From: a bacterium
Lineage (GTDB): Bacteria > Myxococcota_A > Bradymonadia > UBA7976 > UBA1532
DNA: 64,000 bases
NCBI GenBank assembly: GCA_030426085.1
Contig: JAUHYW010000018.1
Span: forward strand, 62,001-126,000
Direction: 5' to 3'
The notes under the pieces were generated by a model that saw only the letters and a program-made list of their open reading frames with translations, searched no databases and was not told the DNA's origin. Shown here in pieces: positions 9,644 through 59,819 of this stretch. The translations under genes and the position numbers were made by a program. The stretch's first letter is position 1. Every line of letters starts with the position of its first letter.

Positions 9644-10746
9644 GGCGTCTTGCCTCCCCGCCGGCGCGAATCGAGCAGGGCCTCGAACGGCGCGGCGTAC
9701 TTCGGCCAGGTCGGCGCCCGCATGAGCGTGCGGCCGAGGGCGTAGGTCCGGAAGAAGTTGGTCAGCTTCCACCCGCCGTCGACCCGCTGCACGAACTGGG
9801 TGCGCAGCGCCCGCTTGCCGTCGATGTTGCCCTGGGCGTAGAGGATGATGACCCCCGGCGGGCCCAGATCCATCTCGAACCGCACCTCGACCGCGTTGGA
9901 CAGGATGGGCCCCGAGTCCTCGTGGGTGCCCGGATCCTGGGCGGCGACGCCGGCCCGGATCTTCTGCGCGCTGAGCGGGGTGTAGAGCGCGGCGTAGTCG
10001 TCCCACGCGCTGCGGGCGAGCAGCCGCATGCCTTGCTGGAAGAGCGCCTGGGCCGCGGTCTTCGGGGCGCCGTCGGCGGCGTCGAATCGATCCCGGCGGC
10101 CGTCGAACTCGAGGAAGACGGTGGCCTCGGTGTCGAGCGGCACGGCGTAGGCCGCCGCCGCGGCGGTGAGCGCCCGGAAGCCGCTCGGCGCCCGCGCGGC
10201 GTGGGTCAGCGCGTCGTTGATGAGCGAGAGCGCCGGATCCATGCCGGTGACGACCCGGCCCTGCCAGCGACCCATGTACTGGCCGAACGCCAGCGAGCGG
10301 ACCCACGGCCCCTCGGATGAGTTCACCCGGAAGACGAAGACCTCTTCGCCCCCGTGGCGCAGGCGGGCGAGCATGTGCACCGCGCGCAGGTCTTCCCAGC
10401 CTTTGCGCAGGAAGTCGACCACCCACGCCGGGGTCGCGTCGCCGGTGTGGCGGGGGTCGAGCAGCGGCCGGGCGGCGTGCACGTCGTCGGCCTTCAGCGC
10501 CCGGATCAGGCCGGTGAAGGCCCGGGCGGCGCCGTCCTTCGTGCCGCCGTCCCGGGCCCAGGCGTCGAACGGGGCGTCGTAGCGCTCGGCGGTGAAGCGC
10601 ACGTAGACCGCCGCCTCGTGCAGCGCGTCGTCGAGCATGACCCCGATCGGGTGGCTGCGGGTGACGGGCGCCGCGGCCGCCGCGCCGACGAGGCCGGCCA
10701 GCCCGATGACACAGAGCGCGATGCGGATGGGATGTCGGCCAGTCAT
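9640..10746 (-). CDS. Secreted protein of unknown family, paired with upstream lipoprotein (copy 2)
   Basis: This 368-aa protein has an N-terminal signal peptide (hydrophobic to about residue 26, Ala-rich cleavage region) followed by VTRSHPIGV. I do not recognise the family. It is a paralogue of the 367-aa protein at 15058-16161: both share VTRSHP near the mature N-terminus, a VFVFR segment, a VPL(D)xxEA(T/V) segment, FEMDLGP, YAQG, and the ending LMR(A/S)PxWPK. The C-terminal half has the strand and aromatic pattern of an NTF2-like fold, but that is only a guess. The start (ATG at 10746) overlaps the stop of the lipoprotein upstream by four bases, and its stop overlaps the start of the giant gene downstream, which implies translational coupling on both sides. 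Its strict position after each multidomain lipoprotein suggests it is an accessory or assembly partner of that lipoprotein. Confidence 0.9.
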   Translation of the reverse strand: MTGRHPIRIALCVIGLAGLVGAAAAAPVTRSHPIGVMLDDALHEAAVYVRFTAERYDAPFDAWARDGGTKDGAARAFTGLIRALKADDVHAARPLLDPRHTGDATPAWVVDFLRKGWEDLRAVHMLARLRHGGEEVFVFRVNSSEGPWVRSLAFGQYMGRWQGRVVTGMDPALSLINDALTHAARAPSGFRALTAAAAAYAVPLDTEATVFLEFDGRRDRFDAADGAPKTAAQALFQQGMRLLARSAWDDYAALYTPLSAQKIRAGVAAQDPGTHEDSGPILSNAVEVRFEMDLGPPGVIILYAQGNIDGKRALRTQFVQRVDGGWKLTNFFRTYALGRTLMRAPTWPKYAAPFEALLDSRRRGGKTP

Positions 10747-13700
10747 AGCGGTATCCGGAAGCCTTCGAAGAGCACTCTCTCGTATCTGAACTGAGTCAGC
10801 ACGAGGTTCAGGATCGAGACGAACTTGACCTCGCCGATCACCACTTCTCCCGTCGTGCCCGGGTTGGCGCAGCCGTCGCCCCGGTTGGTGACGCTGCCCC
10901 CGATGCGGGCTTGCAGGCGGGCCGGCTCGATCTGCACGTTGGGGCAGATCGAGATGAAGCGGCCGGCCTCGACGCAGGCCCGGATGAAGATGCCGAGGCG
11001 CAGCGCGCCGCCGAGGTTGAGCGATCCCCGGCTGAGGATGCACAGGTCCTGCTCGAGGCACTCGTCCTTCTCGGCGCCGACGTCGCCCGAGAGGGTCAGT
11101 GTCACGTCGAAGGTCACCCCGACCTCGATCTGCATGCGCACGCTCGCCCCGCCGATGTCCTCGTCGAAGTCCTCGACGAAGCCGAGGCCGGGCACCGGCG
11201 CGGTCAGCCGGGCGCCGACGTTGAAGAAGGCGTTGCCGTTGACCTTGCCCCGCTCGATGAAGGTGCCGTCGTCCTTGTTGCAGCAGTCGGCCTCCTGCCC
11301 CCGGGCGCCGACGTCGCCCCCGAGGCGGAACTTGAACGGCGCGAACCGCCGCACGGCGGCCTCGACCCGATCGGCGAGGCCCTTGATGCGGATGGCGAAG
11401 TTGAGCGAGGGCGAGCGCAGCTCGTACTGGTTGATCGGCCGGTCGTCGCCCTTGCACTCGCCCTGCTGGCACTGGTCGTCTTCGGTGCACTCGTTCTCGT
11501 CGTCGCACTCGTCGCCGTCGGTGCTGCCGTCGACCGGCTCGCACTCCCCCTCCTGGCAGGTGTACTGCCCGCACTGCTCGTCGCCCTCGGCCGAGTCGCC
11601 GCACGCCTCGCCCTCCGAGACGGGGTTGTCGACGCAGTCGCCCTCCTCGCAGACGCTCTCGGTGCACTCGTTCTCGTCCTGCTCGCACTCCTTCTCGATC
11701 GGCGCGCAGTTGCCGCCCTGGCACTCGAAGCTCTCGATGCAGGCGTCGCCCCCGTCGTCCCCCTCGCACGACGCGCCGTCGGCCTTGGGGTCGTTCTGGC
11801 ACCCGGCGGCGGGGTCGCACGAGTCCTCGGTGCACTCGACGCCGTCGTCGCAGTCGAGGGGATCACTGCCCTGGCACGACCCGCCCTGGCACTCCGACGA
11901 CTGGGTGCACTCGTCGGAGTCATCACACTCGGTGCCGTCCTCCTCCATGCTCTGGAAGACGCACGACCCGCCCTGGCAGACCGCCTCGCCGCAGCCCGAT
12001 CCGTCGTCGCACTTGGTGCCGTCGGCCTTGGGCTCGTAGACGCAGGCCCCGTCCTCGCAGCTCCCGGTCTGGCACGGGTTGCCGTTGTCGCAGTTCGAGG
12101 GGCACTTGGGCGGCGGCGGCGGCGGCGGGGCGGCGTGCCAGCCCGACTTGTGCAGCCCGAAGCCGTCGTCGGAGCAGATCTGCTCGCCGTCGGCGGTCAC
12201 CGTGCCGGTGCCCAGGCCGACCCAGTCGCCCAGGTCGTGGTCGTAGGCGAACATCTCCTGCTGATAGCCCGGGGGGTTGCCCCGGTTGGGGATGCACAGC
12301 CGGGCCGGCGGGTCGAAGCGCACCCCCGGCGGCTGGAGGGTGGCCACCATGTCGGCCGCCGATCCCATCGGGATGGGATCGGGCACCCGCTCGCCGCGCA
12401 CCTGGGACCAGATGATGCGGCAGGTGGGCCCGCCGTCGAGGCAGGTCGCCGAGCCGGCGAAGACGGTCAGCTCGGCGCCCTCGACCCCGCTCAGCCGCAG
12501 CGTCACGTCCGCGTCGCCGCCGACGACGGCCGCGGCGTCGGGGTCGAGCCGGGGCAGGTAGATCGGGCTGCCGATGCCATTGTCGGCGCCGGCCACCGTG
12601 ATGAGATCGTAGGTCAGCCGGGGCCACTCGCCCTCGGGCGCGGCGGTGGTGCCGTCGACCACGAGGTGCACCGCGCCCACCGGCACGTCGTCGATGGCGA
12701 ACCGGCCCTCAGCGTCGGTGGGATCGCTGATGATCGGCCCCGCCTCGAGCCGGATCCACGCGGTCACGCCGGGGATGGGCTGGTCCTGGTTGTCGAGCAC
12801 CTGGCCGATGACCCGGGTCCGGGCCCGGTCGCCGGGCTGCAACGCCTCGGCCCGGAAGGCGGCGCCCTGGGCCCCCGGATCCTGCAACGCCTCGATGGTC
12901 GCCAGGAAGACGTTGGCCCCCGGGTCCGGGCCCAGCGTCGGCGTCGCCCGGGCGAGGCCGTCGCCGTCGCTGGTGACCGTGATCGACGCCTGGTCTTCGA
13001 GGCTGCCGCCCCCGCGCACGACGGTGAACGTCACCTCGACGTCGCGCACCGGGTTGCCGGCGGCGTCGGTGACCAGCGCGGCGAGCGGCTCGGGCAGCGC
13101 CGAGCCGGTCCGGGCCGACTGGAGGTCGCCCGAGATCGTGAGCACCTGCGCCGGATCGGCGGGGTGGATCGAGGTGCAGAACTCGACCTCGCCCACGTAG
13201 CCCGCGGCGGTGGCCCGCACCCGCTGGCTGCCGGCGCCGGTGCGCCCGCCGGGTACGAAGCCGACCGCGGCCAGCCCGTTGTCGTCGGTGGTCACCGTCA
13301 GCGCCCGCCCGCTCTCGGGGAAGGCCTCCAGCGTGCCGTCGCCCCGGCTGACCTCGAACTGTACGTCGGCTCCGGGCACCGGGTTGCCGGCGGCGTCGAG
13401 CAGCGAGACGGTCAGCGGATCGCGCAGCGGCTCGCCCGAGCGGGCGCCCTGGGACTGCCCCGAGATGAGCACCAGCCGCTGGCCGGCCTCGGGGTCCACC
13501 GTCACCTCGATCTGGCGCGTCGAGCGGTTGCCGGCGCGGTCCTCGGCCTCGACGGTGATGACGTTGGGGCCCCGCTGCAGCAGCAGGTCGGGCAGGGTGA
13601 AGGTGCGGTTGAGCACCAGCGCCGGCTGCCCGTTGACCCACACCCGCAGGTCCTCCTCGTCGACCGTGATGCCGGTGATCAAGTCGTTGCTGACCCCGGC

Positions 13701-46666: not shown

Positions 46667-48748
46667 TCAGGGGTGGGCGATGACCATCAGGCTCGGCGCC
46701 CGGTCGAGCGCGCAGCGCAGGCAGTCGTCCACCGTCATGGGATCGAGCGCGGCGAAGCTCTCGTCGAGCACGACCAGATCCGATCGCTGCAACAGCGCCC
46801 GGGCCAGGAAGACCCGGCTGCGCTCCCCGTGGCTGAGCTGCCACCCCGTCTCGCCCACCTGCTGCCGCAGGCCGCCCGGCATGCGATCGATCAGCGGCCC
46901 CAGCCCCAGCCCCCGGGCGGTCTCTTCGGCCTCGGCCAGATCGGCCGGGCTCGGGGGCCACGCCCGGCCGAGCAGCAGGTTGAACGCCAGCGACCCCCCG
47001 AAGACGTGGTTGTCGTGGAACTGCGGCGCCGCCGCGATGCGCCGCCGCCAGCCGCGGGGGCCCAGCGTGCGGTGATCGTAGCCGTCGAGCAGCACCAGCC
47101 CCGACTGGGGCTGGCGCAGGCCGGTGAGCACCGCCGCCAGCGTCGACTTGCCCCCGCCCGACGGCCCCTGGATCAAGAGCCGGGCGCCCCGCCGGATCGA
47201 GACATCGCACCCGTCGAGCACCGCCGGGCCGTCGGGGCGGTAGCGATAGCTCAGGTCGCGGGCGTCGAGCAGGGTGGGGGACTCACGCCTCCCATCTCGG
47301 CCCAGCGCCAGCGGGTCGCCCGCCGGCTGCGTGCGCCGGGCAGCCCGGAAGAGCGGCCCCACGACTCGCCACGCGATGACCGCCCGGCCGATGCGATCGA
47401 GCCCCATGCCCAGCGTCGCCAGGGCCCCACCCGCCAGCAGCACCCCGCCCACCGACACCGCGACCGCCGCCGACGAGGCCCCCGCCACGAAGGCCGGGGC
47501 CAGCGCGGCGATGCCCACCGCGAGCCACGCTCGACCCATCACCCCCAATGGCACCGCCATGGCATCCAGCCGGCGGGCGTCGGCCAGATAGGCCGCCAGC
47601 GCCCGGTCCTCCTCGCCGTGCAGATCGGTCGCCTGCATCAGCCGGGTGCGGTGCCCCACCATCCGGGCCACCAGATCGTCGACCAGCGCCAGCCGGGCCG
47701 TGGTCCACCGCGCTTGCCGTCGGTAGTGCACGACCGCCAGGATCACGACGACCCCGGCGAAGACCCCCAGCGCGGCGACGTGCGCCGCGCCGCCCGCGCC
47801 CAGGCTCAGGACCACCCCGGCGAAGACCAGATCGACCACCGCCATCACCGATCCGAAGGCCAGCCCCAGGGCGCCGGCCTCGATGGTGTCCGACTCGAAC
47901 ACCTGGGCCATCAGCCCGCCGACGCCCTTGCCCCGCATCGCGTCGGGGTCGACCCGCAGCGCGCCGAGCAGCAGCCGCTTCTTGAGCAGCACCCCCACGC
48001 CGGTCGACAGCCGGGCCCGGGCCCACTGCGCGCGCAGCGAGAGCGGCACCATCGTCAGCAGCATCAGCACCCACGCCGCGACGGCCGCCATGCCCAGGCG
48101 CCCGTCGAGCGCGCCGTCGCCGATGAGGACCCAGCCGACCAGCCCGATCGTCAGGTGCGCCAGGTGGGCCAGCCCGAAGGCCAGCGCGTGGCGGCCGAGG
48201 CGGGCGTCCCGGGCCTGACGGATCAGCGGCGCGTCGGGCGCGGCCCGCACGAGCCACGCCTCGCCCACCGGCGCGTCGTGGAAGGCCCGGCGCACGATGG
48301 CCCGCTCGGCCCGCGCCCGCCGCCGCCCGCGCAGCCCGACCCCGTCGAGCAGCGCCACGAAGCCCGGCGCGCCCAGCGTCAGCACCCGTCGGCGCAGGCG
48401 GGCGGTCAGGGCGGCTCGCGGGACCCGGCGCACCCGGCGGTCGGGGGTCAGCAGGCGCAGCCGCGACCCGCCGGCCCCCACGATCGCGAAGACCCCGTCG
48501 GCGCAGCGCACCAGCGCCGGGCCGCCGCGGGCCAGCAGCCCGTCGACGTCGCCGAAGCCGGCGTCGACCGGCTCGACCTCGACCCCCAGCGGCTCGGACA
48601 GCGCGTCGAGCCACGGCCCGTCGGGCACGCCGGATGGGCGGGTGGGGGCCGCCGCGGGCGCCGCCAGCTTCGTGATCGCCGCGAGCGCGTGCAGCGCGTC
48701 GCCCAGATCGGCCGGATCCCAGGCCAGCGTCGAGAGATCGAGCGCCAT
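46667..48748 (-). CDS. ABC exporter, second subunit, with degenerate C39-like N-terminus
   Basis: This 693-aa protein starts at ATG 48748, overlapping the upstream stop as ATGA. Residues 1 to about 150 resemble a C39-peptidase-like domain without catalytic Cys (segments PALVRCADGVFAIVGAGG, LRLLTPDRRVRRVPR). Transmembrane helices follow (about 190-480, including GWVLIGDGAL and AAVAAWVLMLLTMVPLSL). The NBD has Walker A GPSGGGKST, Q-loop APQFHD, signature LSHGERSRV, Walker B LVVLDESFAALD and H-loop IAHP. The protein stops one residue after the H-loop His (His692), which is unusually short. It is probably the partner half-transporter of the C39 ABC protein, together exporting the graspetide; homodimer function cannot be excluded. 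Confidence 0.92.
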   Translation of the reverse strand: MALDLSTLAWDPADLGDALHALAAITKLAAPAAAPTRPSGVPDGPWLDALSEPLGVEVEPVDAGFGDVDGLLARGGPALVRCADGVFAIVGAGGSRLRLLTPDRRVRRVPRAALTARLRRRVLTLGAPGFVALLDGVGLRGRRRARAERAIVRRAFHDAPVGEAWLVRAAPDAPLIRQARDARLGRHALAFGLAHLAHLTIGLVGWVLIGDGALDGRLGMAAVAAWVLMLLTMVPLSLRAQWARARLSTGVGVLLKKRLLLGALRVDPDAMRGKGVGGLMAQVFESDTIEAGALGLAFGSVMAVVDLVFAGVVLSLGAGGAAHVAALGVFAGVVVILAVVHYRRQARWTTARLALVDDLVARMVGHRTRLMQATDLHGEEDRALAAYLADARRLDAMAVPLGVMGRAWLAVGIAALAPAFVAGASSAAVAVSVGGVLLAGGALATLGMGLDRIGRAVIAWRVVGPLFRAARRTQPAGDPLALGRDGRRESPTLLDARDLSYRYRPDGPAVLDGCDVSIRRGARLLIQGPSGGGKSTLAAVLTGLRQPQSGLVLLDGYDHRTLGPRGWRRRIAAAPQFHDNHVFGGSLAFNLLLGRAWPPSPADLAEAEETARGLGLGPLIDRMPGGLRQQVGETGWQLSHGERSRVFLARALLQRSDLVVLDESFAALDPMTVDDCLRCALDRAPSLMVIAHP

Positions 48749-51435
48749 CACGCCGCCTCCCGGGCATCGCCCGGCGCCCGCAGCCGGCCGCCTTCGAGCC
48801 ACCGATGCTGCCAGCGGTCGTCGCCCCAGATGGCCCGGTTGCGGGCCTCGGCCGCGATCAGCTCGGCGTAGCGCCCGCCCCGCTGCGCGAGCGTCGCCGG
48901 CGGGCCGTCCTCGACCACCCGCCCGCCGTCGAGCACGATCACCCGGTCGAAGTCGGCCGTCTCGGCCAGATCATGGGTCACGCACAGCAGCGTCGCCCCG
49001 GCCCAGTGCTCGCGGGCCCGTCGCATCAGCCGCGCCCGCCGGGGCCGGTCGAGCCCCCGGAACGGCTCGTCGAGCAGCGCCAGCCCCGCGTCGGGCCGCC
49101 CCAGCGCCCGGGCCAGCCGCACCCGCTGCCCCTCGCCGCCCGACAGCAGCCCGCCGCCCTCGCCCAGCGGGCTCTGCAAGCCCGCCGGCAGCCGCCCCAG
49201 CAGCGGGCGCAGCTCGGCCGCGTCGAGCACCGCGCCGGGCGAGGCCGCCTCGGCCCCATAGCGCAGGTTGTCCAGCAGGCTGCGGTTCCAGATGTACGTC
49301 GCCGGATCGACCCACGCCGTGCGGGCCCGCAGCGCCCCGACGCCCGCGGACAGCGGCGCGCCGTCCACCCGGATCTCACCCGCCGCCGGCCGGCGCAGCC
49401 CCGCGATCAGCCCCACGAGGCTCGACTTGCCGGCCCCCGAGCGCCCCACCAGCGCGACGTGCTGCCCGGCGGGGATCGCGAGGTCGACGCCATCCAGGAT
49501 GGTCGCGCTGCCCGCCTTGAGGGTCACCCCCGCCAGCTCGATCGCGACCGGCCCCGTCGCCTGCGCGCCCTCGGCGATACCCGCCGAGTCGCTCTCGGGC
49601 GCGTCCAGCGGCTCGATGATGCGCAGCGCCTGATTGCGCACGCCGGGCCACGCCTGGAGCGCGTCGACCAGCGCCCGGGCTCGCCCGGGCAGCGCCAGCC
49701 CCCACCACACCAGCAGCAGCACGCCCCGGGTGTCGGTCGCCCGCGACAGGTGATCCCACAGCAGCCAGCCGACGACCCCCGCCCCGGCGACCCCCAGGAC
49801 GCCCTCGACCACCAGCGCCAGCCGCTCCCGGCTCAGCGCGGCGTCGGCCCACTCGGTCAGCAGCCCCTCGTGCCGCCGGCGCATCGCCCGCTGCCCGCCG
49901 TGGGTCCGGATCGCCGAGAGCCCCAGCAGCGCGTCGAGGCTGTAGCGGGTCAGCGCGCCGGCGTGGGTCCGCAGGCGCAGGTCGCGCTCGGCGAGCACCG
50001 GGACCGAGGCCAGCGGCAGCAGCAGGCCCACCGCGACCGTCGCGCAGACCACCGGCCACAGCCCGGGGTCGAGCCAGATCACCGCCGCCGCCGTGAAGAG
50101 CAGCCCCGCCGCCGACCGGATCACCTGCGCGCCCAGACCGGGCAGCGTGCGCAGCGCGTCGATGCCGTGGGCCCGCTCGGCCAGATCGGAGAGCGGGCGG
50201 CTGTCGAGGTAGCGCAGCGTCAGCCGGGGCAGCTTGGCCCGGAACGCCACCCGGACCCGCATCTCGACCCGCCGCCCCATGCGCAGCAAGCCCACCGTCA
50301 GCGGGAGCTCGAGGGCCAGAGCGGCGGCGAAGAAGGCGATGAGCGCCCCCAGCGCCGCCAGCCGCTGCTCGGCGGGGCCGACGACGTCGAGGATGTCGAC
50401 CAGCCCCCGCAGCAGCGTCGCCTCGCCCACGGTGACCGCCGCGCTGACGAGCAGGCCCAGGCCCACCATGACCGGAGTCAGCGCGCCCTCGGCCCACATC
50501 TGGCCCACGATCGCGCGCAGCGGCCGGGGGGTGGGGGCGCTCAGCGTGTCGGCCAGCGCCTGGCGGGCCTCGGGGTCGTCGATGCCATCGCCCGACGTGT
50601 CTGCTTCGTCCGGGGTGGGAGCCGGCGTGGTATCCGAGCCATTCGGGATGCCATCTGACATGCCATCGGAATTGCCATGGGCGTCGGTCCGCAGCCCCCG
50701 GGCCCGCACCAGCACCGCCCCCCGCATCTGGATCCGGCCGCCGTCCAGCGGCAGCGCCGACCACATCTCCAGCGGCACCGTGACCCGGCCCTCGCTCAGC
50801 CCCTCGGCCAGCGCCCGGATGGCCTGCTCGGCCTCCGACCCCCGCCGCAGCGCGCCGTCGCCCACCAACTGGCCCACCATGCGGGTCGCCGCGTCGAGCG
50901 CCGCCCAGCGCCCGGGCCCCGGATCCCCGTCGGCCCACGCGAGCACATCGCCCGCCGCCTCCAGCTCAGCCAGCCGCCCGGCCAGCGCGCGCCGGCCCCC
51001 GGGCCCCGCCGCGTAGGCCCGCCAGGCGTCCCCCGGCGCCGGCATGTCGTGCACGTACAGCCAGCGTCGCACCGCCTCGGCCCGCATCCACCGCCGGCCG
51101 ACCGCCGGATCCATCACCTGCACCCGGTCGCCCACCCGGCGCCACAGCACCACGAAGTGCCGGGCCCCGTCGGGCTGCACGACCACCGCAATACACGGCA
51201 GCCCCTCGCGCAGCACCCGATCGGGGGCCATCAGCGTCTGCTCGACCGCCAGCCCCAGCGCCCGGGCGACGTCCTCGACCCGGTCGATCGAGGTGCCGTC
51301 CACGTCGGTCTGGCACGCCGCCCGCAGCCGATCCACGCCGGCCCGCAGGCCGAAGCCGCCCAGCAGCGAGGCCAGCGCCGCCGGACCGCAGTCCATGGCC
51401 GAGGTGCCCACCGTCTCCGGGATCCGCCGGCGCAT
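48748..51435 (-). CDS. C39-peptidase ABC exporter (peptidase-containing ABC transporter)
   Basis: This 895-aa protein starts at 51435, overlapping the upstream HlyD-like gene's stop. The N-terminal C39 domain has Cys16 (SAMDCGPAAL), His93 (ARHFVVLW) and Asp109 (VQVMDPAVG), the catalytic triad of double-glycine leader peptidases. The oxyanion Gln expected six residues before Cys is Gly10. An atypical spacer of about 160 residues follows, with an Asp/Gly/Ser/Thr-rich stretch (NSDGMSDGIPNGSD). Then come six transmembrane helices and an NBD: Walker A GRSGAGKSS, signature LSGGEGQRV, Walker B LALLDEPFRGLD, H-loop CVTHD. In the family the enzyme cleaves after Gly-Gly while exporting the peptide. The precursor at 52851 has such a Gly-Gly. 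Confidence 0.94.
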   Translation of the reverse strand: MRRRIPETVGTSAMDCGPAALASLLGGFGLRAGVDRLRAACQTDVDGTSIDRVEDVARALGLAVEQTLMAPDRVLREGLPCIAVVVQPDGARHFVVLWRRVGDRVQVMDPAVGRRWMRAEAVRRWLYVHDMPAPGDAWRAYAAGPGGRRALAGRLAELEAAGDVLAWADGDPGPGRWAALDAATRMVGQLVGDGALRRGSEAEQAIRALAEGLSEGRVTVPLEMWSALPLDGGRIQMRGAVLVRARGLRTDAHGNSDGMSDGIPNGSDTTPAPTPDEADTSGDGIDDPEARQALADTLSAPTPRPLRAIVGQMWAEGALTPVMVGLGLLVSAAVTVGEATLLRGLVDILDVVGPAEQRLAALGALIAFFAAALALELPLTVGLLRMGRRVEMRVRVAFRAKLPRLTLRYLDSRPLSDLAERAHGIDALRTLPGLGAQVIRSAAGLLFTAAAVIWLDPGLWPVVCATVAVGLLLPLASVPVLAERDLRLRTHAGALTRYSLDALLGLSAIRTHGGQRAMRRRHEGLLTEWADAALSRERLALVVEGVLGVAGAGVVGWLLWDHLSRATDTRGVLLLVWWGLALPGRARALVDALQAWPGVRNQALRIIEPLDAPESDSAGIAEGAQATGPVAIELAGVTLKAGSATILDGVDLAIPAGQHVALVGRSGAGKSSLVGLIAGLRRPAAGEIRVDGAPLSAGVGALRARTAWVDPATYIWNRSLLDNLRYGAEAASPGAVLDAAELRPLLGRLPAGLQSPLGEGGGLLSGGEGQRVRLARALGRPDAGLALLDEPFRGLDRPRRARLMRRAREHWAGATLLCVTHDLAETADFDRVIVLDGGRVVEDGPPATLAQRGGRYAELIAAEARNRAIWGDDRWQHRWLEGGRLRAPGDAREAA

Positions 51436-52619
51436 CAGCGGCCCCCTCCGTCGCCCGCGTCGACCGCGGCCGCCTCGGGCTGCACCGCCCGCCCCAGCGC
51501 CGCCAGCAGCATCTCGAGCGGCGCGATCTGCTCGACCTCGATCTCGAGCTGCCCGGTCAGCCCGTGCTGCAGCGGCACGTCGTGGGCCTCGCCGGGGGCC
51601 AGCTCGACCCGCAGCCAGCCGTCGGACGCCTCGGCGGCGACCCCGGTGACCGTGGCCTCGACCACCCCGTAGCGGGTCCAGGGGAAGCCGTCGACCCGCA
51701 GCCGGGCCCGCTGCCCGACCCGCACCCGGCCCAGGGCCCGGGCCGCCGGGACGCGGGCGACGATCCGCAGATCGCCCGGGCCGACGATCGTGCCCAGCCG
51801 CGCGCCGGGGGCCAGCACCGCGCCGACGCCCCGGGGGTCGACCGCCGCGATCCGCCCCGCGGCCGGCGCGCGCACGGTGGTTGCCTCCAGATCGCCCCGC
51901 AGCCGGGCCAGGCGGGCTTCGGCCTGCTCGATCTCGGCGTCCAGCGTCGCCTGCTCGGCGTCCATGCCCGCCAGCGCCGCGTCGCGCTCGGCCGCCGATC
52001 GGGTCCGCTCGGCCCGCAGGCGGCTCACCTGCTCGGCCTGCTCCCGGGCCTCGGCCCGCGCCCGCCGCTCGGCCGCCCGCAGCCGCTCGACCTCGGCCGA
52101 CGACGCCACCGCTCGCGCCGCCAGCTCGGCCGCCCGATCGGCCTCGGCCCGGGCCAGCCGATGGGCCGCGCGGGCCGCGTCCAGGCGGGCGCGGGCCTCG
52201 GCGATGCCCGCCGCGTCGGCCGCCGCTGCCGGCTCCAGCGCCGCCGCCCGGGCCGCCCGCTCGCGGATCCGGGTCACCCGGCGGGCCCGCAGCCCGGTCA
52301 GCGCCGCCTCGGCCTCGGCCAGCGACAGGCGCAGCGGCCCGTCGTCCAGCCGCACCAGCACCTCGCCCGCCGCGACCGGTCGATCCAGCGCCAGCCGGCT
52401 CTCGACCAGCCGCCCGCCGACCTCGACCTCGATCGGCAAGCTCGGCCGATCCAGCTCGACCCGGGCCAGCGCGCCGGGCACGAAGACCGCCACCCGGGCC
52501 TCGGCGAACCACGCGCCCCACCCGCCGAGCGCCAGGGCGCCCACCAGCGCGCCGGCGATCAGCCAGCGGCGGCCGCCGGCGTCCAGGGCCCGGGTGGTCT
52601 GATGAAAGGGGGTCGGCAT
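51435..52619 (-). CDS. HlyD-family membrane fusion protein
   Basis: This 394-aa protein starts at ATG 52619 behind GAGGAG. A single N-terminal transmembrane segment (about 19-37, WLIAGALVGALALGGWG) is followed by a first lipoyl half (VLVRLDDGPLRL), a long Ala/Arg/Glu-rich coiled-coil hairpin (about 97-220), a second lipoyl half (VRAPAAGRIAAVDPRGVG) and a beta-barrel domain. It would bridge the ABC exporter to the periplasm or an outer-membrane channel; no TolC gene is in the window. It is the first gene of the three-gene export operon, with one-base stop/start overlaps to the next. Confidence 0.93.
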   Translation of the reverse strand: MPTPFHQTTRALDAGGRRWLIAGALVGALALGGWGAWFAEARVAVFVPGALARVELDRPSLPIEVEVGGRLVESRLALDRPVAAGEVLVRLDDGPLRLSLAEAEAALTGLRARRVTRIRERAARAAALEPAAAADAAGIAEARARLDAARAAHRLARAEADRAAELAARAVASSAEVERLRAAERRARAEAREQAEQVSRLRAERTRSAAERDAALAGMDAEQATLDAEIEQAEARLARLRGDLEATTVRAPAAGRIAAVDPRGVGAVLAPGARLGTIVGPGDLRIVARVPAARALGRVRVGQRARLRVDGFPWTRYGVVEATVTGVAAEASDGWLRVELAPGEAHDVPLQHGLTGQLEIEVEQIAPLEMLLAALGRAVQPEAAAVDAGDGGGR

Positions 52620-52850
52620 GGGGCTCCTCGGGGGCGTTCGAAGAGCAGTTGCACGCTCGCCGGGCCGGCTTTTTCCACCGAGCGCGAAAACGCCCCTGCC
52701 GAAAAAATCCGACGAGCCAGAAAAAGAGCGGCGCCCCCGCCGTGCAGGACACCGACAGAGGCCGACGCTGGCACGCATCGTCCTCCGGCCCCCGCCGGCA
52801 ATCCGGTCGGTCAAGGGGTGTGAACCCAGAGCCATATGGAGGGAAAACCC
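52620..52850. promoter_or_regulatory. Divergent control region of the graspetide cluster
   Basis: This 231-bp region separates the export operon from the precursor gene. It contains runs CTTTTTCC, CGAAAACG, CCGAAAAAATCC and AGAAAAAGAG (about 52668-52730), markedly A/T-richer than flanking DNA, and is the only plausible site for both promoters. A heptamer TGGCACG occurs near 52768, but the -12 part of a sigma-54 promoter is missing. The ribosome-binding sites are GAGGAG for the minus-strand gene and GGAGGGA (52838-52844) for the precursor. Confidence 0.5.
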
Positions 52851-53042
52851 ATGGCCAAGCAGAACGTGCCGTTCTTCGCCCGCTTCCTCGAGACCCAGAC
52901 CCCGCAGGTGCGGACCGGTGTGAAGGCCGGCGCCGAGGGGGGTCGGGAGCGCGAACGGACCCAGAAGGCGCCGTCCGACTTCGACGAGATGGTCACCATG
53001 AAGTACCCGTCGGACGACGACGAGTATCGCTGGGAGTACTGA
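52851..53042 (+). CDS. Microviridin-type graspetide precursor with two tandem cores
   Basis: This 63-aa precursor starts at ATG 52851, because GGAGGGA lies 6-7 bases upstream; the in-frame ATG at 52836 overlaps that site and lacks its own. The leader has PFFARFLE (7-14), the conserved helix that microviridin ATP-grasp ligases recognise. A Gly-Gly (30-31) could be the C39 cleavage point, followed by RERER. Two cores follow: TQKAPSDFDE (37-46) and TMKYPSDDDE (49-58), both with T-x-K-x-P-S-D-x-D-E spacing, then the tail YRWEY. By homology, Thr would esterify Asp at +6, Ser the acidic residue at +8, and Lys form an amide with Glu at +9. The +8 residue is Asp in both cores, where classical microviridins usually have Glu. 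The likely product is a bicore cage peptide protease inhibitor. Confidence 0.95.
   Translation: MAKQNVPFFARFLETQTPQVRTGVKAGAEGGRERERTQKAPSDFDEMVTMKYPSDDDEYRWEY
52938..52943 (+). other. Candidate double-glycine leader cleavage site in the precursor
   Basis: Codons 30-31 of the precursor encode Gly-Gly in the context KAGAEGG-RERER. The neighbouring C39 exporter would be expected to cut after the second Gly, releasing a 32-residue peptide with both cores. The typical hydrophobic pattern at -4, -7 and -12 of double-glycine leaders is poor here. Confidence 0.5.
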
Positions 53043-53053
53043 GCGGGTGCTCT

Positions 53054-53082
53054 CGGCCGGCCGACGTCCTGTCGGCCGGCCG
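53054..53082 (+). terminator. Strong intra-operon hairpin after the precursor gene
   Basis: CGGCCGGCCGAC (53054-53065), loop GTCCT, and GTCGGCCGGCCG (53071-53082) form a perfect 12-bp GC-rich stem 11 bp after the precursor stop and 60 bp before the first ligase. No T-run follows, so it is more likely an attenuator, processing point or 3' stabiliser than a full terminator. Comparable elements after RiPP precursor genes raise precursor over enzyme expression. Confidence 0.7.
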
Positions 53083-53141
53083 GCCCGTCCGGTCGCCCCC
53101 CGAGCCATCAGACAGTCATCCCGAGCCTGCCCGGAGCCATC

Positions 53142-54122
53142 ATGTCGATCCTCGTCGTCACCCACAGCGGCGACCACCGCTACGTCGCGGCGGTCGCCGA
53201 CCGCCTGCGCGAGCGGGGCCGGGATGTCATCCGGCTCGACACCGACCGCTTCCCCACCGAGATCGGCCTGTGCCTGGGATCACGACCCACCCTCAGCGCC
53301 GACGGGCAGACCCACGACCTGCGGGCGGTGGACGCCATCTGGTACCGCCGCCTGCGCCCCCCGCGGCTGCCCGAAGGCATGCCCGACGACTTCCGGGCCG
53401 TCGCCGCCGCCGAGTCCCGGGCGACGCTGCTCGGCCTCGTCAACAGCCTGCCCGCCTTCCGCCTCGACCCGTGGGATCGCATCCGCCACGCCGATCACAA
53501 GCTGCGCCAGATGCAGCTCGCCGAGGCGGTCGGGCTGACGGTGCCCCCGACCCTGATCACCAACGAGCCGGGCGCGGTGCGCGACTTCGCCGCCCGCTGC
53601 CCCGACGGCGTGGTCACCAAGATGCTCTCGGCCTTCGCCCTCGACCGCCCCGGCGGGGAGCAGGTCGTCTTCACCAACGCGCTGAGCGACGCCGATCTGG
53701 CCCACCTCGCCGGACTGCGCCTGTGCCCGATGGTCTTCCAGGCCCGCGTCCCCCGGGTGCGCGAGCTGCGGTGCACGGTCGTCGGGCACCACGTCTTCTG
53801 CGGCGCGCTCGAGGCCGAAGACAGCGCCGACGCCGCCGACGACTGGCGCCGACGGGGCGACGCGCTCGCCGCGAAGTGGCGCCCCCACCGCCTGCCGGAC
53901 GACGTCGCCGACAAGCTGCGCCGGCTCGCCACCCGGCAGGGCCTCAACTACGGCGCCGCCGATCTGCTGGTCGACGCCGACGGCACCCATCACTTCCTCG
54001 AGATGAACCCCGCCGGCGAGTGGGGCTGGATGCAGCGGGCCTGCGATCTGCCCATCGGCGAAGCCATCGCCGAGGTGCTCGCCGATCCGAAGGCCCGCCG
54101 GGTCACGGAGTGGATCCCATGA
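53142..54122 (+). CDS. ATP-grasp graspetide ligase 1 (MvdC/MvdD-like)
   Basis: This 326-aa protein starts at ATG 53142 behind GGAG. The N-terminal pre-ATP-grasp part has VVTHSGDHRYVAAVADRL and IWYRRLRPP. ATP-grasp features follow: DHKLRQMQLAEAVGLTVPPT, the nucleotide-contacting Lys in VTKML, MVFQARVPRVRELRCTVVG, and the metal-binding end YGAADLLVDADG..FLEMNPAGEW. Length and motifs fit the microviridin ligases that form side-chain ester or amide cross-links using ATP. Whether it makes lactones (MdnC role) or lactams (MdnB role) cannot be told from these motifs. Its stop overlaps the start of ligase 2 as ATGA. Confidence 0.95.
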   Translation: MSILVVTHSGDHRYVAAVADRLRERGRDVIRLDTDRFPTEIGLCLGSRPTLSADGQTHDLRAVDAIWYRRLRPPRLPEGMPDDFRAVAAAESRATLLGLVNSLPAFRLDPWDRIRHADHKLRQMQLAEAVGLTVPPTLITNEPGAVRDFAARCPDGVVTKMLSAFALDRPGGEQVVFTNALSDADLAHLAGLRLCPMVFQARVPRVRELRCTVVGHHVFCGALEAEDSADAADDWRRRGDALAAKWRPHRLPDDVADKLRRLATRQGLNYGAADLLVDADGTHHFLEMNPAGEWGWMQRACDLPIGEAIAEVLADPKARRVTEWIP

Positions 54123-55129
54123 GCCAGTCACCCCGGGTCGCCCTGCTGCTGACCCACACCCGCGATCACTACACCATCGACCGGGTCGCCGAAGAGGTCG
54201 CCGCCCGGGGGGTCGAGCCCGTCCGGGTCGACGTCGACACCTACCCCGCGACCGTGGGGCTCGACGCGTTCATCGATCCCGACGGCGTCCGCCCGGCGCT
54301 GACCCTCGGCGATCGGATCATCGAGCCCGAGGCGGTGGTCGGCGTCTGGCGGCGCAAGCTGTGGCCCGCGCCGCCGCCCGAAGGCATGGATCCCCAGATG
54401 GCCGCCGCCTGCGCCCGGGAGGCGATCTCGGCCCGCGATCTATGGCTCGCCGGCTTCGAGGCGCGGGGCCTGCCGATGATCAACGACCCCTCCGCCGAGT
54501 ACGCCGCCGAGAACAAGGGGCGCCAGCTCGCCGCCGCCCGGACCTGCGGGCTGGCCGTGCCCCCGACGCTGGTCACCAACCGCCCCGCGGCGGCCCGCGC
54601 CTTCTGGCGGCGCCACGGGGGCGACGTCGTCGCCAAGATGCTGACCCCGTACAGCATGAGCATGAACGCCGACACGCCCTTCGTGTACACCAACCGCATC
54701 ACCGAGGCCGACCTCGACGGGCTCGACGGCCTGCGGGTCAGCCCGATGGTCTTCCAGCGCTGCGTGCCCAAGGCCCACGAGCTGCGGATCATCGTCGTCG
54801 GCGACCGGGCCTTCGCCGGGCGCATCGACGCCGCCGACAGCGCCCGGGGGGCCACCGACTGGCGCCGGGCCGCGGTCGGCGAGGTGCAGTGGAAGCCGGC
54901 GACCCTCGATCCGGAGCTCGCCCGCCGCCTGTGCGCCGTCGTGCGCCGGCTGGGGCTGGTCTATGGCGCGGCCGACGTCATCGTCACCCCCGACGGGGCC
55001 CCGGTCTTCCTCGAGGTGAACCCGGCCGGCGAGTGGGGCATGATCGAACACCGCCTCGGCGCGCCCATCGCCGCCGCCCTGGCCGACGCGCTGGTGGGGG
55101 CCGGCCCCCGCCCGAAGGAGCACCGATGA
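54119..55129 (+). CDS. ATP-grasp graspetide ligase 2 (MvdC/MvdD-like)
   Basis: This 336-aa protein overlaps ligase 1 by four bases. Motifs: LLLTHTRDHYTIDRVAEEV at the N-terminus, VVGVWRRKLWP, ENKGRQLAAARTCGLAVPPT, VAKML, PMVFQRCVPKAHELRIIVVG, and YGAADVIVTPDG..FLEVNPAGEWGMI. Metal and nucleotide residues appear intact. It differs from ligases 1 and 3 in the VWRRK element and in the AKMLTPYSMSMN loop, where the others have aromatic or charged residues. Its exact bond specificity is unknown. Its stop overlaps the start of ligase 3. Confidence 0.95.
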   Translation: MSQSPRVALLLTHTRDHYTIDRVAEEVAARGVEPVRVDVDTYPATVGLDAFIDPDGVRPALTLGDRIIEPEAVVGVWRRKLWPAPPPEGMDPQMAAACAREAISARDLWLAGFEARGLPMINDPSAEYAAENKGRQLAAARTCGLAVPPTLVTNRPAAARAFWRRHGGDVVAKMLTPYSMSMNADTPFVYTNRITEADLDGLDGLRVSPMVFQRCVPKAHELRIIVVGDRAFAGRIDAADSARGATDWRRAAVGEVQWKPATLDPELARRLCAVVRRLGLVYGAADVIVTPDGAPVFLEVNPAGEWGMIEHRLGAPIAAALADALVGAGPRPKEHR

Positions 55130-56100
55130 CCATCCTGCTGGTGACCCGCTCGGCGGACGCCCACTGCACGCCCCGGGTGCACGACATCCTGAAGGCCCGG
55201 GGCCTCGACGTGGCCCGCTTCGACACCGACCTCTTCCCCGGGCCGGCGCGGCTGGTGACCGCCGAGACCGGCCCCGCCCGGGGGCGGCTCATCCTGCCCG
55301 ACCGGGCGGTCGACCTCGAGGCGATCACCGCCGTCTGGCACCGGCGCATGTCGCTCGGCGGGGCCCTGCCGGCCACGATGGATCCGGCCATGCGCCACGC
55401 CGCGATCGTCGAGTCGCGGGCCCTGCTCGACGAGGTCTTCGAGCACCTGCCGGCCTTCGCCCTCGACCCCATCGCGGCCCACCGCTCAGCCGCCGGCAAG
55501 CAGCGCCAGCTCGCCGTCGCCGCCGAGGTCGGCCTGCGGGTGCCGCGGACCCGATTCACCAACGACCCCGACGCGGTGCGGGCGCTGGTCGAGGCGTGCC
55601 CCGGGGGGGTCGTCACCAAGATGATGCACCGCTTCGACCTGCCCACCGACGGCGGCTCGGCGACGCTCTACACCAGCGTGCTCGACGACGACGACATCGC
55701 CGCCCTCGACGACGGCCTCGAGCTGTGCCCGATGACCTTCCAGGAGCACATCCCCAAGGCCCGCGAGCTGCGGGTGGTCGCCGTCGGCCCCCGCCTGTGG
55801 ACCGGGGCCATCGAGTCGCCGAAGCACGCCGGAGCCGAGGTCGACTGGCGCCGGGAAGGGGCCGAGCTGATCGACGCCTGGGCCCCCGTCGAGCTGCCCC
55901 GCGTCGTCGGCGAGCGCATCCGGCGCCTGATGGGCCAGCTCGGGCTGATCTACGGGGCGATCGACCTCATCGTGACCCCCGAGGGGGAGCACGTCTTCCT
56001 CGAGGTCAACCCGGGGGGCGAGTACTTCTGGCTCGAAGATCACTGCGGCTTCGAGATCTCGGCGGCGATCGCCGACCGCCTGCAACGGGGCGTTGGCTGA
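55126..56100 (+). CDS. ATP-grasp graspetide ligase 3 (MvdC/MvdD-like)
   Basis: This 324-aa protein starts at ATG 55126, overlapping the ligase 2 stop as ATGA. Motifs: VTRSADAHCTPRVHDIL, VWHRRMSLG, AGKQRQLAVAAEVGLRVPRT, VTKMMHRF, PMTFQEHIPKARELRVVAVG, and YGAIDLIVTPEG..FLEVNPGGEYFWLEDHCG. The C-terminal active-site end (GGEYFWLE) deviates from the AGEWG(W/M) of the other two, and the loop after TKM is basic (MHRF). Catalytic residues look intact. Two ligases suffice in classical microviridin pathways, so this third is the distinctive enzyme of the cluster. Confidence 0.95.
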   Translation: MTILLVTRSADAHCTPRVHDILKARGLDVARFDTDLFPGPARLVTAETGPARGRLILPDRAVDLEAITAVWHRRMSLGGALPATMDPAMRHAAIVESRALLDEVFEHLPAFALDPIAAHRSAAGKQRQLAVAAEVGLRVPRTRFTNDPDAVRALVEACPGGVVTKMMHRFDLPTDGGSATLYTSVLDDDDIAALDDGLELCPMTFQEHIPKARELRVVAVGPRLWTGAIESPKHAGAEVDWRREGAELIDAWAPVELPRVVGERIRRLMGQLGLIYGAIDLIVTPEGEHVFLEVNPGGEYFWLEDHCGFEISAAIADRLQRGVG

Positions 56101-56143: not shown

Positions 56144-56175
56144 TCGCCGGCCGGCCGTTGATATCCTGCCCGTCG
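56144..56175 (+). promoter_or_regulatory. Candidate promoter with leaderless GTG start for the kinase gene
   Basis: TTGATATCCTGCC (about 56157-56169) holds a TATCCT -10-like hexamer about 8 bp before the GTG at 56175. No ribosome-binding site is visible before either candidate start, which would fit a leaderless transcript. This is weak, motif-only evidence. Confidence 0.25.
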
Positions 56176-59100
56176 TGTCGAGACGCCGGACCATTCCGCT
56201 GGGCCCGTTCGACCTCGTGCAGCCCGCCGGACGGGGGGCGATGGCCGAGGTGTGGCGCGCGGTGCATCGCAGCCGCTCGGTGCCGGTCGCGGTCAAGATC
56301 GTCACCGCGCCCGCCGGCCGGGCCGAGCGCTACCGGCGCATGTTCGCCGACGAGGTGCGCTCGACCGCCCGCCTCGACCACCCGGCGGTCATCCGGCTGC
56401 ACGACCACGGCGAGGTGCCGCCCGACGTCGCCGAGCTGACCGGCGGCCGCCTGCCCCGGGGCGCTCCGTATCTGGTCATGGAGTGGGTCGGCGCCGGCAC
56501 CCTGCGCAGCCGCAAGGGCCGCATGGTGTGGGCCGGCCTGCGCTCGACGCTGCTGACCCTGCTCGACGCCCTGGCCCACGCCCACGCCCGGGGGGTCATC
56601 CACCGCGACCTCAAGGCGGCCAACGTGCTCATCGGCGAGCGGGGGCCGGTGCTGACCGACTTCGGGCTGGCCTTCGACCGGGAGCACATCGACGCCGACC
56701 TCGAGAGCTCGGCCCGCCTCGGCACCCCCAACTTCATGGCCCCCGAGCAGGTCGCCGGCGACTGGCGGGTGCTCGGCCCGTGGACCGACCTCTACGCGCT
56801 CGGCTGCCTGGCCTACGCCCTCGCGAGCGGGCAGGCCCCGTTCGCCGGCCGCGGCGCCCGGCGCATCATGCGGGCCCACCTCGACGAAGACCCGCCCCCG
56901 CTGCGCCCCACCAGCCCGATGCCCGCCGGGTTCGAAGGCTGGATCCGGCGCCTGATGGCCAAGAGCCCCGGCGACCGCTACCGCTTCGCCGCCGACGCCG
57001 CCGTGGCGCTGCTCGGCATGGAGGAGCCGGCGCTGCCCGACCCCGACAGCGGCGGCCTCGACACCAACCCCGAGCTGCCGGCCCTCGACCTCGACGGGGA
57101 GGACATCACCCTCGTCTCGCCCCCGGTCTTCCTGCCGCTGGACGACGTGAGCTGGAGCACCGGGTCGAGCCACCCCGACGGCCGCCCGCCGGTGCCCCGC
57201 TCGTGGCACGGCCCGCCGCCCCCGCCCGCCGAGCCGCCGCTGCCCGGGGTCGGCCGGGCGCTCTTCGGCCTGCGCGAGACCGCGTTCGTGGGGCGGGGCG
57301 ACGCCCGCGACCGCCTGTGGACCCACCTCCGGGGGGCGACCGGCGGCGGCGGGGCCCGGATGGTGATCATCGAGGGCCCCTCGGGGCAGGGCAAGAGCCA
57401 CCTCGCCGGCTGGGCCTGCCAGCGGGCCCACGAGCTGGGCGTCGCCGATCACATGCGCGCGCTGCACGACGAGCTGCACGGGCCGGGCAGCGGCCTGGGG
57501 CCCATGCTCGAGCAGTACCTGCGCTGCGGCGACACCCCGCCCGACGAGCGGCTCGAGCGCATCCGCTCGGCGCTGGGCGGGGGCCCGGCCGACGACGATC
57601 TGCCCGCCGCGCTCGCCGCGACGATGGACGCCAGCGGCCGCTTCGACGACGCCGCCACCGCCGTCAAGCTCGGCTCCGACCGCGAGCGCTACGAGACGCT
57701 CTCCCGGGGGCTGGCGCTGATGGTGCTGCGCCGCCCGCTCATCCTGTGGTTCGACGACGTGCAGTGGGGCCTCGACGCGCTGCGCTTCGCCGACGACCTG
57801 CTCACCCGCCACGCCTACCTGCCGGTCATGCTCATCGCCACCGCGCGGGAGGACGCCCTGCGCCCGGGATCGGCCGAGGCGGCCGTGCTCGAGCGGCTGG
57901 TGCACAAGCGCACCGTCGAGGTGCTGCGCATCGGGCCGCTCGACGCCGAGACGCTCACCCGCATGGTGCGGGCCCGGCTGCCCATCGGGCGGGGGGTCGC
58001 CGAGCTGCTCGCCCGGCGCACCGCCGGCAGCCCGCTCTTCGCCGAGCAGCTCGTGCGCCACTGGATCCGGACCGGCGCGCTGACCGACGGCCCCGACGGC
58101 TTCCGGCTGCGCGCGGGGGCCGAGGCCGCGCTGCCCGGCGACCTCGCCGCGGTGTGGAGGGCCCGCCTCGACGACGCCCTGGCCGACGCCGGCGACGCCC
58201 ACTGGCTGGCCCTCGAAGGCGCCGCGGTGCTCGGCTTGATGGTCGAGGCCGACGAATGGCGCGACCTGTGCGCCCGCAGCGGGCTGCCCACCCCCGGCCC
58301 GGCCTTCGAACGGCTGCTCGACGAGCGGCTGGTGCGGGCCGAAGACGGCGGCCGGTGGGCCTTCGCCCACGCCATGCTGCGCGAGACCCTGCTCAAGCGG
58401 GCCCGGGACGGCGCGCGGTGGGTCGAGTGGAACGCCCGCTGCGCCGCCACCCTCGCCGAGCGGGACGACCCCGATCCGGCCCGGCTGGCGAGCCATCAGG
58501 TGGCCGCCGGAGACCACGCCGCTGCCCTCGCCCCGCTGTTGCGCGGCGTGCGCCGGGCGCTCGGGCGGGGGGACTACGCCGCCATGCGCCGCCTGCTGCT
58601 GATGCGGGCCCGGGCCCTGCGCGCCGCCCGCCGCCCGCTGTCCGATCCGGCGTGGATCGAGAACCGCATCTACTGGGCCCGGCTGGACGTCGTCACCGAG
58701 CGCCTGCGCCCCGCCCGCCGCCGGGCCCGCCGGGCCGCCGAAGCCGCCCGGGGCCTGGGCGACCCCCGCCTGCTGGCCCTGGCGCTCATCGAGCTGGGCC
58801 GGGTCGAGCAGATCAGCGACCCCCAGCGGGGCGCGGGCATATTGCTCGACGCCCGCGACGCCGCCTGCCGCAGCGGCGACCCCCTGCTCGAAGCCGAGGC
58901 CCTGCGCCGGGCCGGCTGGTGTCTGGCCCAGGGCGGCAAGTTCGAAGAGGCCGAGGCGCTGCACGACGAAGCCCTCGACCGACTGCGGGGGGTCGACGAC
59001 CCGTTCACCGAGGGCGGCATCCTGCACACCCGGATCATCGTCGCCTGGAAGCAGGGCCGCCTCGACCGGGCCGCCCGCCACGGCGCGCGGGCCATGGCGC

Positions 59101-59819
59101 TCTTCACCCGCAGCGGCGACCGCTACGGGCTGGGCAACGTCTCCAACTCGCTGGGCGACGTCGCCCGCTACCGGGGCGATCTGGCCGAGGCCGAGCGCTG
59201 GTATCGTCAGGCCCTGCGCCTCAAGAACGCCGTCGCCAGCCAGGCCGACGACACCGAGCTCAACCTCGCGCTGACCCTCGTCGAGCTGGGCCGCTACCCC
59301 GAGGCCCGGGCCCGCATCGAGCAGGTCGTCGAGCGGGCCCGGGTGGTCAACAACGCCGTCATCCTGGCCTTCGGGGCGGTGGTGATGCTGCCCTGCGACG
59401 CCTACACCGCCGACTGGTTCTCGTGGGACGCCCGGTGGCACGACATGCGGCTGTTCACCGAAGGCAAGCTGGCCGAGCCCGACGCCGTGCGCGCCCTGCG
59501 CCTCGCCAGCGACCTCGCCGCGACCGCCGGCGAGCTCGAGCGCGCCGAGCAGGCCGAAGACCTCGCCCGCCTGCAAGAAGAAGCGCTGGGCCGGGCCGAG
59601 TCCCCCTCGACCGCGCCGCCGGCGGCCGCGGTCACCGTCGACGACGGCGCCACCGTCGACACCGAAGCCCCCCGCGCGCTGCCCCCGCCCGCCGACACCG
59701 CCGATGACGACCCGGGCGCCGACGACCCGGCGGCTGACGACATGGCGGCCGACTTCGACACCGGCCCGCCCACCGCCGTCGCCCCGCTCACCATCGACCC
59801 CCCCGACGACGAGGGCTGA
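56175..59819 (+). CDS. Ser/Thr protein kinase fused to AAA ATPase and TPR region
   Basis: This is a 1214-aa protein from GTG 56175; an in-frame ATG at 56112 would add 21 residues before the conserved kinase start and has no better signal. The kinase domain (PknB type) has glycine loop AGRGAMAEV (18-26), Lys41, Glu60, HRDLKAAN (143-150), DFG (162-164) and the APE motif in FMAPEQ. A Pro/Asp-rich linker leads to an AAA ATPase: Walker A GPSGQGKSH (from 401) and Walker B ILWFDDVQW (Asp527-Asp528). A helical TPR-like region (about 820-1130) and an acidic Pro/Thr tail follow. Kinase-AAA-TPR fusions are common in Myxococcota as signalling hubs. It follows the last ligase by 74 bp, but a link to the graspetide is not shown. 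Confidence 0.92.
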   Translation: MSRRRTIPLGPFDLVQPAGRGAMAEVWRAVHRSRSVPVAVKIVTAPAGRAERYRRMFADEVRSTARLDHPAVIRLHDHGEVPPDVAELTGGRLPRGAPYLVMEWVGAGTLRSRKGRMVWAGLRSTLLTLLDALAHAHARGVIHRDLKAANVLIGERGPVLTDFGLAFDREHIDADLESSARLGTPNFMAPEQVAGDWRVLGPWTDLYALGCLAYALASGQAPFAGRGARRIMRAHLDEDPPPLRPTSPMPAGFEGWIRRLMAKSPGDRYRFAADAAVALLGMEEPALPDPDSGGLDTNPELPALDLDGEDITLVSPPVFLPLDDVSWSTGSSHPDGRPPVPRSWHGPPPPPAEPPLPGVGRALFGLRETAFVGRGDARDRLWTHLRGATGGGGARMVIIEGPSGQGKSHLAGWACQRAHELGVADHMRALHDELHGPGSGLGPMLEQYLRCGDTPPDERLERIRSALGGGPADDDLPAALAATMDASGRFDDAATAVKLGSDRERYETLSRGLALMVLRRPLILWFDDVQWGLDALRFADDLLTRHAYLPVMLIATAREDALRPGSAEAAVLERLVHKRTVEVLRIGPLDAETLTRMVRARLPIGRGVAELLARRTAGSPLFAEQLVRHWIRTGALTDGPDGFRLRAGAEAALPGDLAAVWRARLDDALADAGDAHWLALEGAAVLGLMVEADEWRDLCARSGLPTPGPAFERLLDERLVRAEDGGRWAFAHAMLRETLLKRARDGARWVEWNARCAATLAERDDPDPARLASHQVAAGDHAAALAPLLRGVRRALGRGDYAAMRRLLLMRARALRAARRPLSDPAWIENRIYWARLDVVTERLRPARRRARRAAEAARGLGDPRLLALALIELGRVEQISDPQRGAGILLDARDAACRSGDPLLEAEALRRAGWCLAQGGKFEEAEALHDEALDRLRGVDDPFTEGGILHTRIIVAWKQGRLDRAARHGARAMALFTRSGDRYGLGNVSNSLGDVARYRGDLAEAERWYRQALRLKNAVASQADDTELNLALTLVELGRYPEARARIEQVVERARVVNNAVILAFGAVVMLPCDAYTADWFSWDARWHDMRLFTEGKLAEPDAVRALRLASDLAATAGELERAEQAEDLARLQEEALGRAESPSTAPPAAAVTVDDGATVDTEAPRALPPPADTADDDPGADDPAADDMAADFDTGPPTAVAPLTIDPPDDEG

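Follow-up and report, generated by a model that had tools for sequence, protein, structure and literature searches.

The 64,000 nt stretch of contig JAUHYW010000018.1 analysed here (the window) contains a real and conserved microviridin-type cluster, and its notable points are an extra ATP-grasp ligase and an altered C39 peptidase domain. We consider it likely to belong to the class II microviridins (those with several cores and a double-glycine site), as a variant that would make a double-cage peptide. The genes for the precursor and three intact ATP-grasp ligases are on the forward strand, and divergent from them on the reverse strand are genes for an HlyD-type periplasmic adaptor, a C39 peptidase-ABC exporter (C39-ABC) and a further half of an ABC exporter (ABC2). 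All of these parts, and their divergent arrangement, were listed in the original prediction and were found where it had placed them. It had also noted the lack of a GNAT gene, and the region is indeed fully occupied by the genes named here.

Neighbouring ligase genes share 4 bases at each junction, base 51435 is common to the HlyD and C39-ABC genes, and the C39-ABC and ABC2 genes also overlap. These overlapping gene ends suggest that each side of the cluster is an operon. Directly downstream of the ligases is a gene for a large Ser/Thr kinase-AAA-TPR protein (56175–59819), which is present in a syntenic position in a genome of the same genus with approximately 80% identity. It was rejected as an operon member, as it is separated by a gap of approximately 74 bp and the genes on the other side of the cluster, encoding a metallo-hydrolase, a methyltransferase and ArsR, are also syntenic. 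The kinase gene is probably part of the flank.

The precursor and its two cores

The precursor gene lies within an ORF that opens at 52836 and would encode 68 aa. The ATG at 52851 is most likely the true start, because it is preceded by the purine-rich stretch GGAGGGAAAA and the homologues in the same-genus locus (L016) begin at an equivalent MA(K/S)xNVPFFARFL. Starting there and with its stop at 53042, the precursor is 63 aa. It exceeds the curated cut-offs of both PF12559 (E = 3.1e-13; 50.2 bits, cut-off 21) and NF033738 (E = 5.3e-14; 52.8 bits, cut-off 26), in agreement with the predicted PFFARFL leader and microviridin-like cores. The leader motif, PFFARFL (52869–52889), which corresponds to the ligase-binding helix, is the single exact match to this motif in the genome, and it is followed by a double-glycine leader site, AGAEGG (52938–52943), identified from the sequence and by alignment.

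Two copies of the pattern T-x-K-x-P-S-D-x-(D/E)-(D/E) are present. Core 1, TQKAPSDFDEM (52959–52991; TQKAPSDFDE is residues 37–46), has all of the ring residues (T, K, S, D, D, E) in place, and core 2, TMKYPSDDDEY (52995–53027; TMKYPSDDDE is residues 49–58), is a canonical microviridin core that is variable after PSD. When the 23 residues preceding the last core were permuted 200,000 times, only 5 of the shuffles yielded another complete set of ring residues. An equivalent cluster, with two bicore precursors, was found in a second genome of the same genus (G209; L016, JAUHXC010000015.1), and a scan of the genome contigs found no further cluster beyond this same-genus locus. Both cores are retained in both of its precursors, where the leader sites are AGAESG and AGAETG, and core 1 is identical in the three precursors from the two species, with the DNA differences being synonymous. 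The bicore reading of the precursor is thus upheld by a second core with every ring residue, by its rarity in shuffles and by its conservation in a second species.

Three ligases resembling MvdC and MvdD

Ligase 1 (53142–54122; TIGR04184, 339 bits) is a divergent MvdD/MdnC-like enzyme with the C-terminal motif EMNPAGEWGWMQ, ligase 2 (54119–55129; TIGR04185, 338 bits) is of the MvdC/MdnB type and ligase 3 (55126–56100; TIGR04184, 335 bits) is MvdD/MdnC-like, with EVNPGGEYFWLE as in MdnC. These are the only MvdD-type ligases in the whole genome. Against the MvdC/MvdD models all three reach E < 1e-99, with scores below the NCBIfam equivalog cut-offs of 475 for TIGR04184 (ligases 1 and 3) and 425 for TIGR04185 (ligase 2). 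The best PDB match was MdnC (5ig9) for ligases 1 and 3 and MdnB (5ig8) for ligase 2, and the predicted model of ligase 1 (pLDDT 84.6) has a TM-score of 0.83–0.90 to MdnC. The family-invariant residues (K, DWR and E.N.xGE) are retained in all three. Among the positions at which MdnC contacts the leader (PMC7823629), Asp192 is retained in all three ligases and Asn195 is substituted in all three, and the acidic residue at position 191 is found only in ligase 3, with Ala in ligases 1 and 2. We predict that ligase 2 forms lactams and that ligase 3 forms lactones.

The original prediction required the ligases to fall within the MvdC/MvdD clade. This held for ligase 2, which is within the MdnB/MvdC clade with support of 100/99, while in two trees ligases 1 and 3 are among the MvdC/MvdD-type enzymes and any grouping of them with MvdD/MdnC is not firm. 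Ligases 1 and 3 are 44% identical. In both trees, ligase 1 is apart from ligase 3 and MdnC and groups, with support of 85/89 and 87/82, with a ligase from a different genus of the family. A recent tandem duplication giving rise to ligases 1 and 3 was not supported by the trees, with an AU test not rejecting it (p = 0.058).

One possibility is that ligase 1 is of a separate microviridin ligase subtype and closes an extra link or one of another kind, e.g. between the cores or to the acidic aromatic tail. Its placement in the two trees is consistent with this, as is the GEWGW that follows the E.N motif, which is intermediate between GEWGM in MdnB and GEFFW in MdnC; a mixed signature of this type is also found in one ligase of another family in the phylum (G049). 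However, the deep nodes are weakly supported, the grouping of ligase 1 with ligase 3 was not rejected, and the precursor has no clear spare conserved nucleophile for another ring. We regard such a subtype as unlikely. A redundant duplicate heading for loss is quite unlikely. Between the two species the ligases are 72–79% identical, with a rough dN/dS of 0.3–0.5, and the lowest conservation is that of ligase 1 (72% identity, rough dN/dS 0.49). However, its dN/dS is still well under 1, it is open in both species with its active-site residues retained, and extra ligases recur in other families.

This recurrence emerged from 379 sampled genomes of the phylum, in which an Inhibitor_I10 precursor was found in 7 genomes and an MvdD-type ligase (E ≤ 1e-30) in 19. 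Two ligases are found beside a K-x-PSD precursor in four of them (G352, G340, G369 and G293), and three or four ligases recur in other families. In G049 (L046), four ligases in a row (8126–12010) are beside one single-core precursor, and G267 has one single-core precursor and at least three ligases, at a contig end. A search of the order that includes G049 and G267 found no additional multi-ligase genomes. The cluster in G049, which is in another family of the same phylum, shares with that in the window an MvdC-like and several MvdD-like ligases, HlyD, C39-ABC and ABC2, but differs in having four ligases, a single core and all genes on one strand.

Other arrangements were also seen in the phylum. 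At L053 (10173–11173) and L056 (7145–8489), three or four tandem single-core precursors are accompanied by one very divergent ligase, and the genomes that carry them have other ligases elsewhere. Two-ligase clusters near 11–11.5 kb in L050, L051 and L052, all from one genus with genomes of 10.8–13.3 Mb, have precursors in which Cys flanks the core on both sides (CTKKYPSDADDC..). A ligase in G104 was rejected as a small microviridin cluster because no precursor was found next to it.

The multi-ligase clusters bear on whether the ligases are core specific, with the invariant TQKAPSDFDEM lactonized by ligase 1 and the other core by ligase 3. Two MvdD-like ligases and two unlike cores do occur together in both species of the genus. 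However, G049 and G267 combine four and at least three ligases, respectively, with one core, and a general rule of one ligase per core is contradicted by such clusters. In addition, AMdnC, an MvdD-type enzyme, processes three cores alone (PMC5934393), and hence the second MvdD-like ligase is not explained by the presence of two cores alone. Division of the cores between ligases 1 and 3 is thus an improbable explanation.

A general export cassette with an altered C39 domain

The export genes encode HlyD (51435–52619; PF13437, 5.4e-12), C39-ABC (48748–51435; PF03412, 1.4e-18 and PF00005, 1.1e-20) and ABC2 (46667–48751; PF00005, 2.5e-21). The N-terminus of ABC2 matches C39 domains (hhalign probability 93, E = 2.9e-7), and this C39-like domain is degenerate and lacks the catalytic residues. 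The nucleotide-binding domain of ABC2 stops right after the H-loop (..VIAHP*), as it does in nearly all of the relatives read. Foldseek matched ABC2 to HlyB/PCAT1, a supportive result from a full-length model of low confidence (mean pLDDT 58). It is plausible that C39-ABC and ABC2 form a heterodimer.

Homologues of ABC2 were found in 26 of the 379 genomes, and C39-ABC and HlyD adjoin it at most of the loci read. The HlyD/C39-ABC/ABC2 cassette is present at about 20 other loci in the phylum (e.g. L046 and L104–L121), and most of the genomes that carry it have no MvdD-type ligases. The cassette therefore appears, from its distribution, to be a general one that was taken up by the microviridin cluster, and neither the dedicated export machine of the original prediction nor ABC2 as a dedicated graspetide exporter could be sustained. 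At one of the other loci (L109), a small ORF that adjoins the cassette (10280–10489) may encode a cargo peptide. The NHLM/NHLP export genes (TIGR03794, TIGR03796 and TIGR03797) likewise include HlyD, a C39-ABC and a second ABC protein, but the proteins in the window score 29.8/156, 193/853 and 109/709 bits, respectively, all far under the family cut-offs.

The Gln of the oxyanion hole is established for papain-like C39 peptidases. In alignments, the C39 domain in the window retains the Cys-His-Asp triad, but the Gln six residues before the Cys is replaced by Gly (codon 51406–51408). This Gly is confined to the genus of the cluster, where it is found in both species (the window and L016), while Gln is found in 6mpz and in 15 of the 15 other cassettes aligned. 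The G049 cluster has Gln at this position. Judged from the alignment, the missing oxyanion Gln may impair cleavage. This contrast with the other cassettes could mean that in this genus the C39 domain has ceased to cut and serves just to dock the leader, which would be removed by another protease. As the exporter retains the catalytic Cys, His and Asp and the precursor its GG-type site, such a loss of cleavage seems doubtful, though conceivable.

Relationship to known microviridins and predicted pathway

In the published definition, class II clusters combine a GG site, a C39-ABC protein and several cores. As many as five cores occur in their precursors, separated by GG sites or not, and a C39 membrane protein is normally encoded in the cluster, with a GNAT in only a subset and C39 plus HlyD able to substitute for mdnE (PMC7823629, PMC13039773). 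The C39-ABC and HlyD proteins rank with the most frequent neighbours of graspetide ligases, for which two per locus are mentioned (PMC8939145). Microviridins have been reported from Sorangium (PMC12766979). The cluster in the window has a PFFARFL-type leader, more than one core, a GG site, a C39 protein and an MvdC-type ligase, as in class II, and three ligases rather than the two that are typical, though not strictly defining, of the class. The composition had been predicted to be novel. However, multiple cores, a GG site with C39-ABC, HlyD and the lack of a GNAT are published class II traits, and it is the third ligase that is unusual. No three-ligase graspetide cluster was found described in the open-access literature, to which the search was confined, so that this absence is weak evidence. 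The three ligases, the paired exporter cassette and the Gly in the C39 domain are the less ordinary features of what is otherwise an ordinary microviridin cluster. Against the class II reading stand the ligase scores under the equivalog cut-offs, the loss of the oxyanion Gln, the processing of three cores by AMdnC alone and the pairing of four ligases with a single core in G049.

Comparison with known systems revealed partial likenesses. The AMdnA/B/C system of Anabaena sp. PCC 7120 shares the PFFARFL leader, several T-x-K-x-PSD cores and MvdC- and MvdD-like ligases, but in the window there are three ligases rather than two, a paired ABC exporter and a single residue (V) between the cores. A cluster in a plasmid of Nostoc sp. 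UHCC 0870 (L064) also has C39-ABC divergent from precursor-MvdC-MvdD, plus HlyD, but has two ligases, a GNAT nearby and no annotated second ABC protein. The mdnA-E and mvdA-E clusters of Microcystis and Planktothrix share the leader, core chemistry and ligase families, but have a single core, two ligases, a GNAT, an ABC protein without C39 and no HlyD. Chryseoviridin from Chryseobacterium is also a multi-core microviridin relative, and its ligase, CdnC, is only distantly related to those in the window.

In microviridin biosynthesis, MvdD forms the lactones first and MvdC forms the lactam after (PMC7823629). Under the class II reading, the PFFARFL helix of the precursor would bind the ligases, both cores would be lactonized at Thr-Asp and Ser-Asp by the MvdD-like ligases 1 and 3, and two Lys-Glu lactams would be formed by the MvdC-like ligase 2. 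Given two cores and the established microviridin chemistry, six ring closures are expected, i.e. six dehydrations (−108 Da). The C39 domain of the exporter would then cut after AGAEGG, and C39-ABC, with ABC2 as its likely partner half-transporter, would export the peptide together with HlyD. The product would be a single peptide of 32 residues that carries two cages in tandem and has a free N-terminus, and by analogy with known microviridins it probably inhibits serine proteases. The prediction of a bicore microviridin-type graspetide made without an N-acetyltransferase is supported by the precursor, the ligases and synteny. A more radical version, in which ligase 1 is a microviridin ligase of a third functional class and forms a linkage of neither the MvdC nor the MvdD kind, giving a fused double cage that is exported by paired ABC proteins with a peptidase lacking the oxyanion Gln, is very unlikely.

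Microviridins have been described with two ligases, one for the lactones and one for the lactam, and clusters with three or four pose the testable question of why more have been kept. For peptide engineering, such clusters may be a source of ligases whose selectivity is split or altered. With Gly in place of the oxyanion Gln, the C39 domain provides a natural experiment on the need for this residue in leader-cutting exporters.
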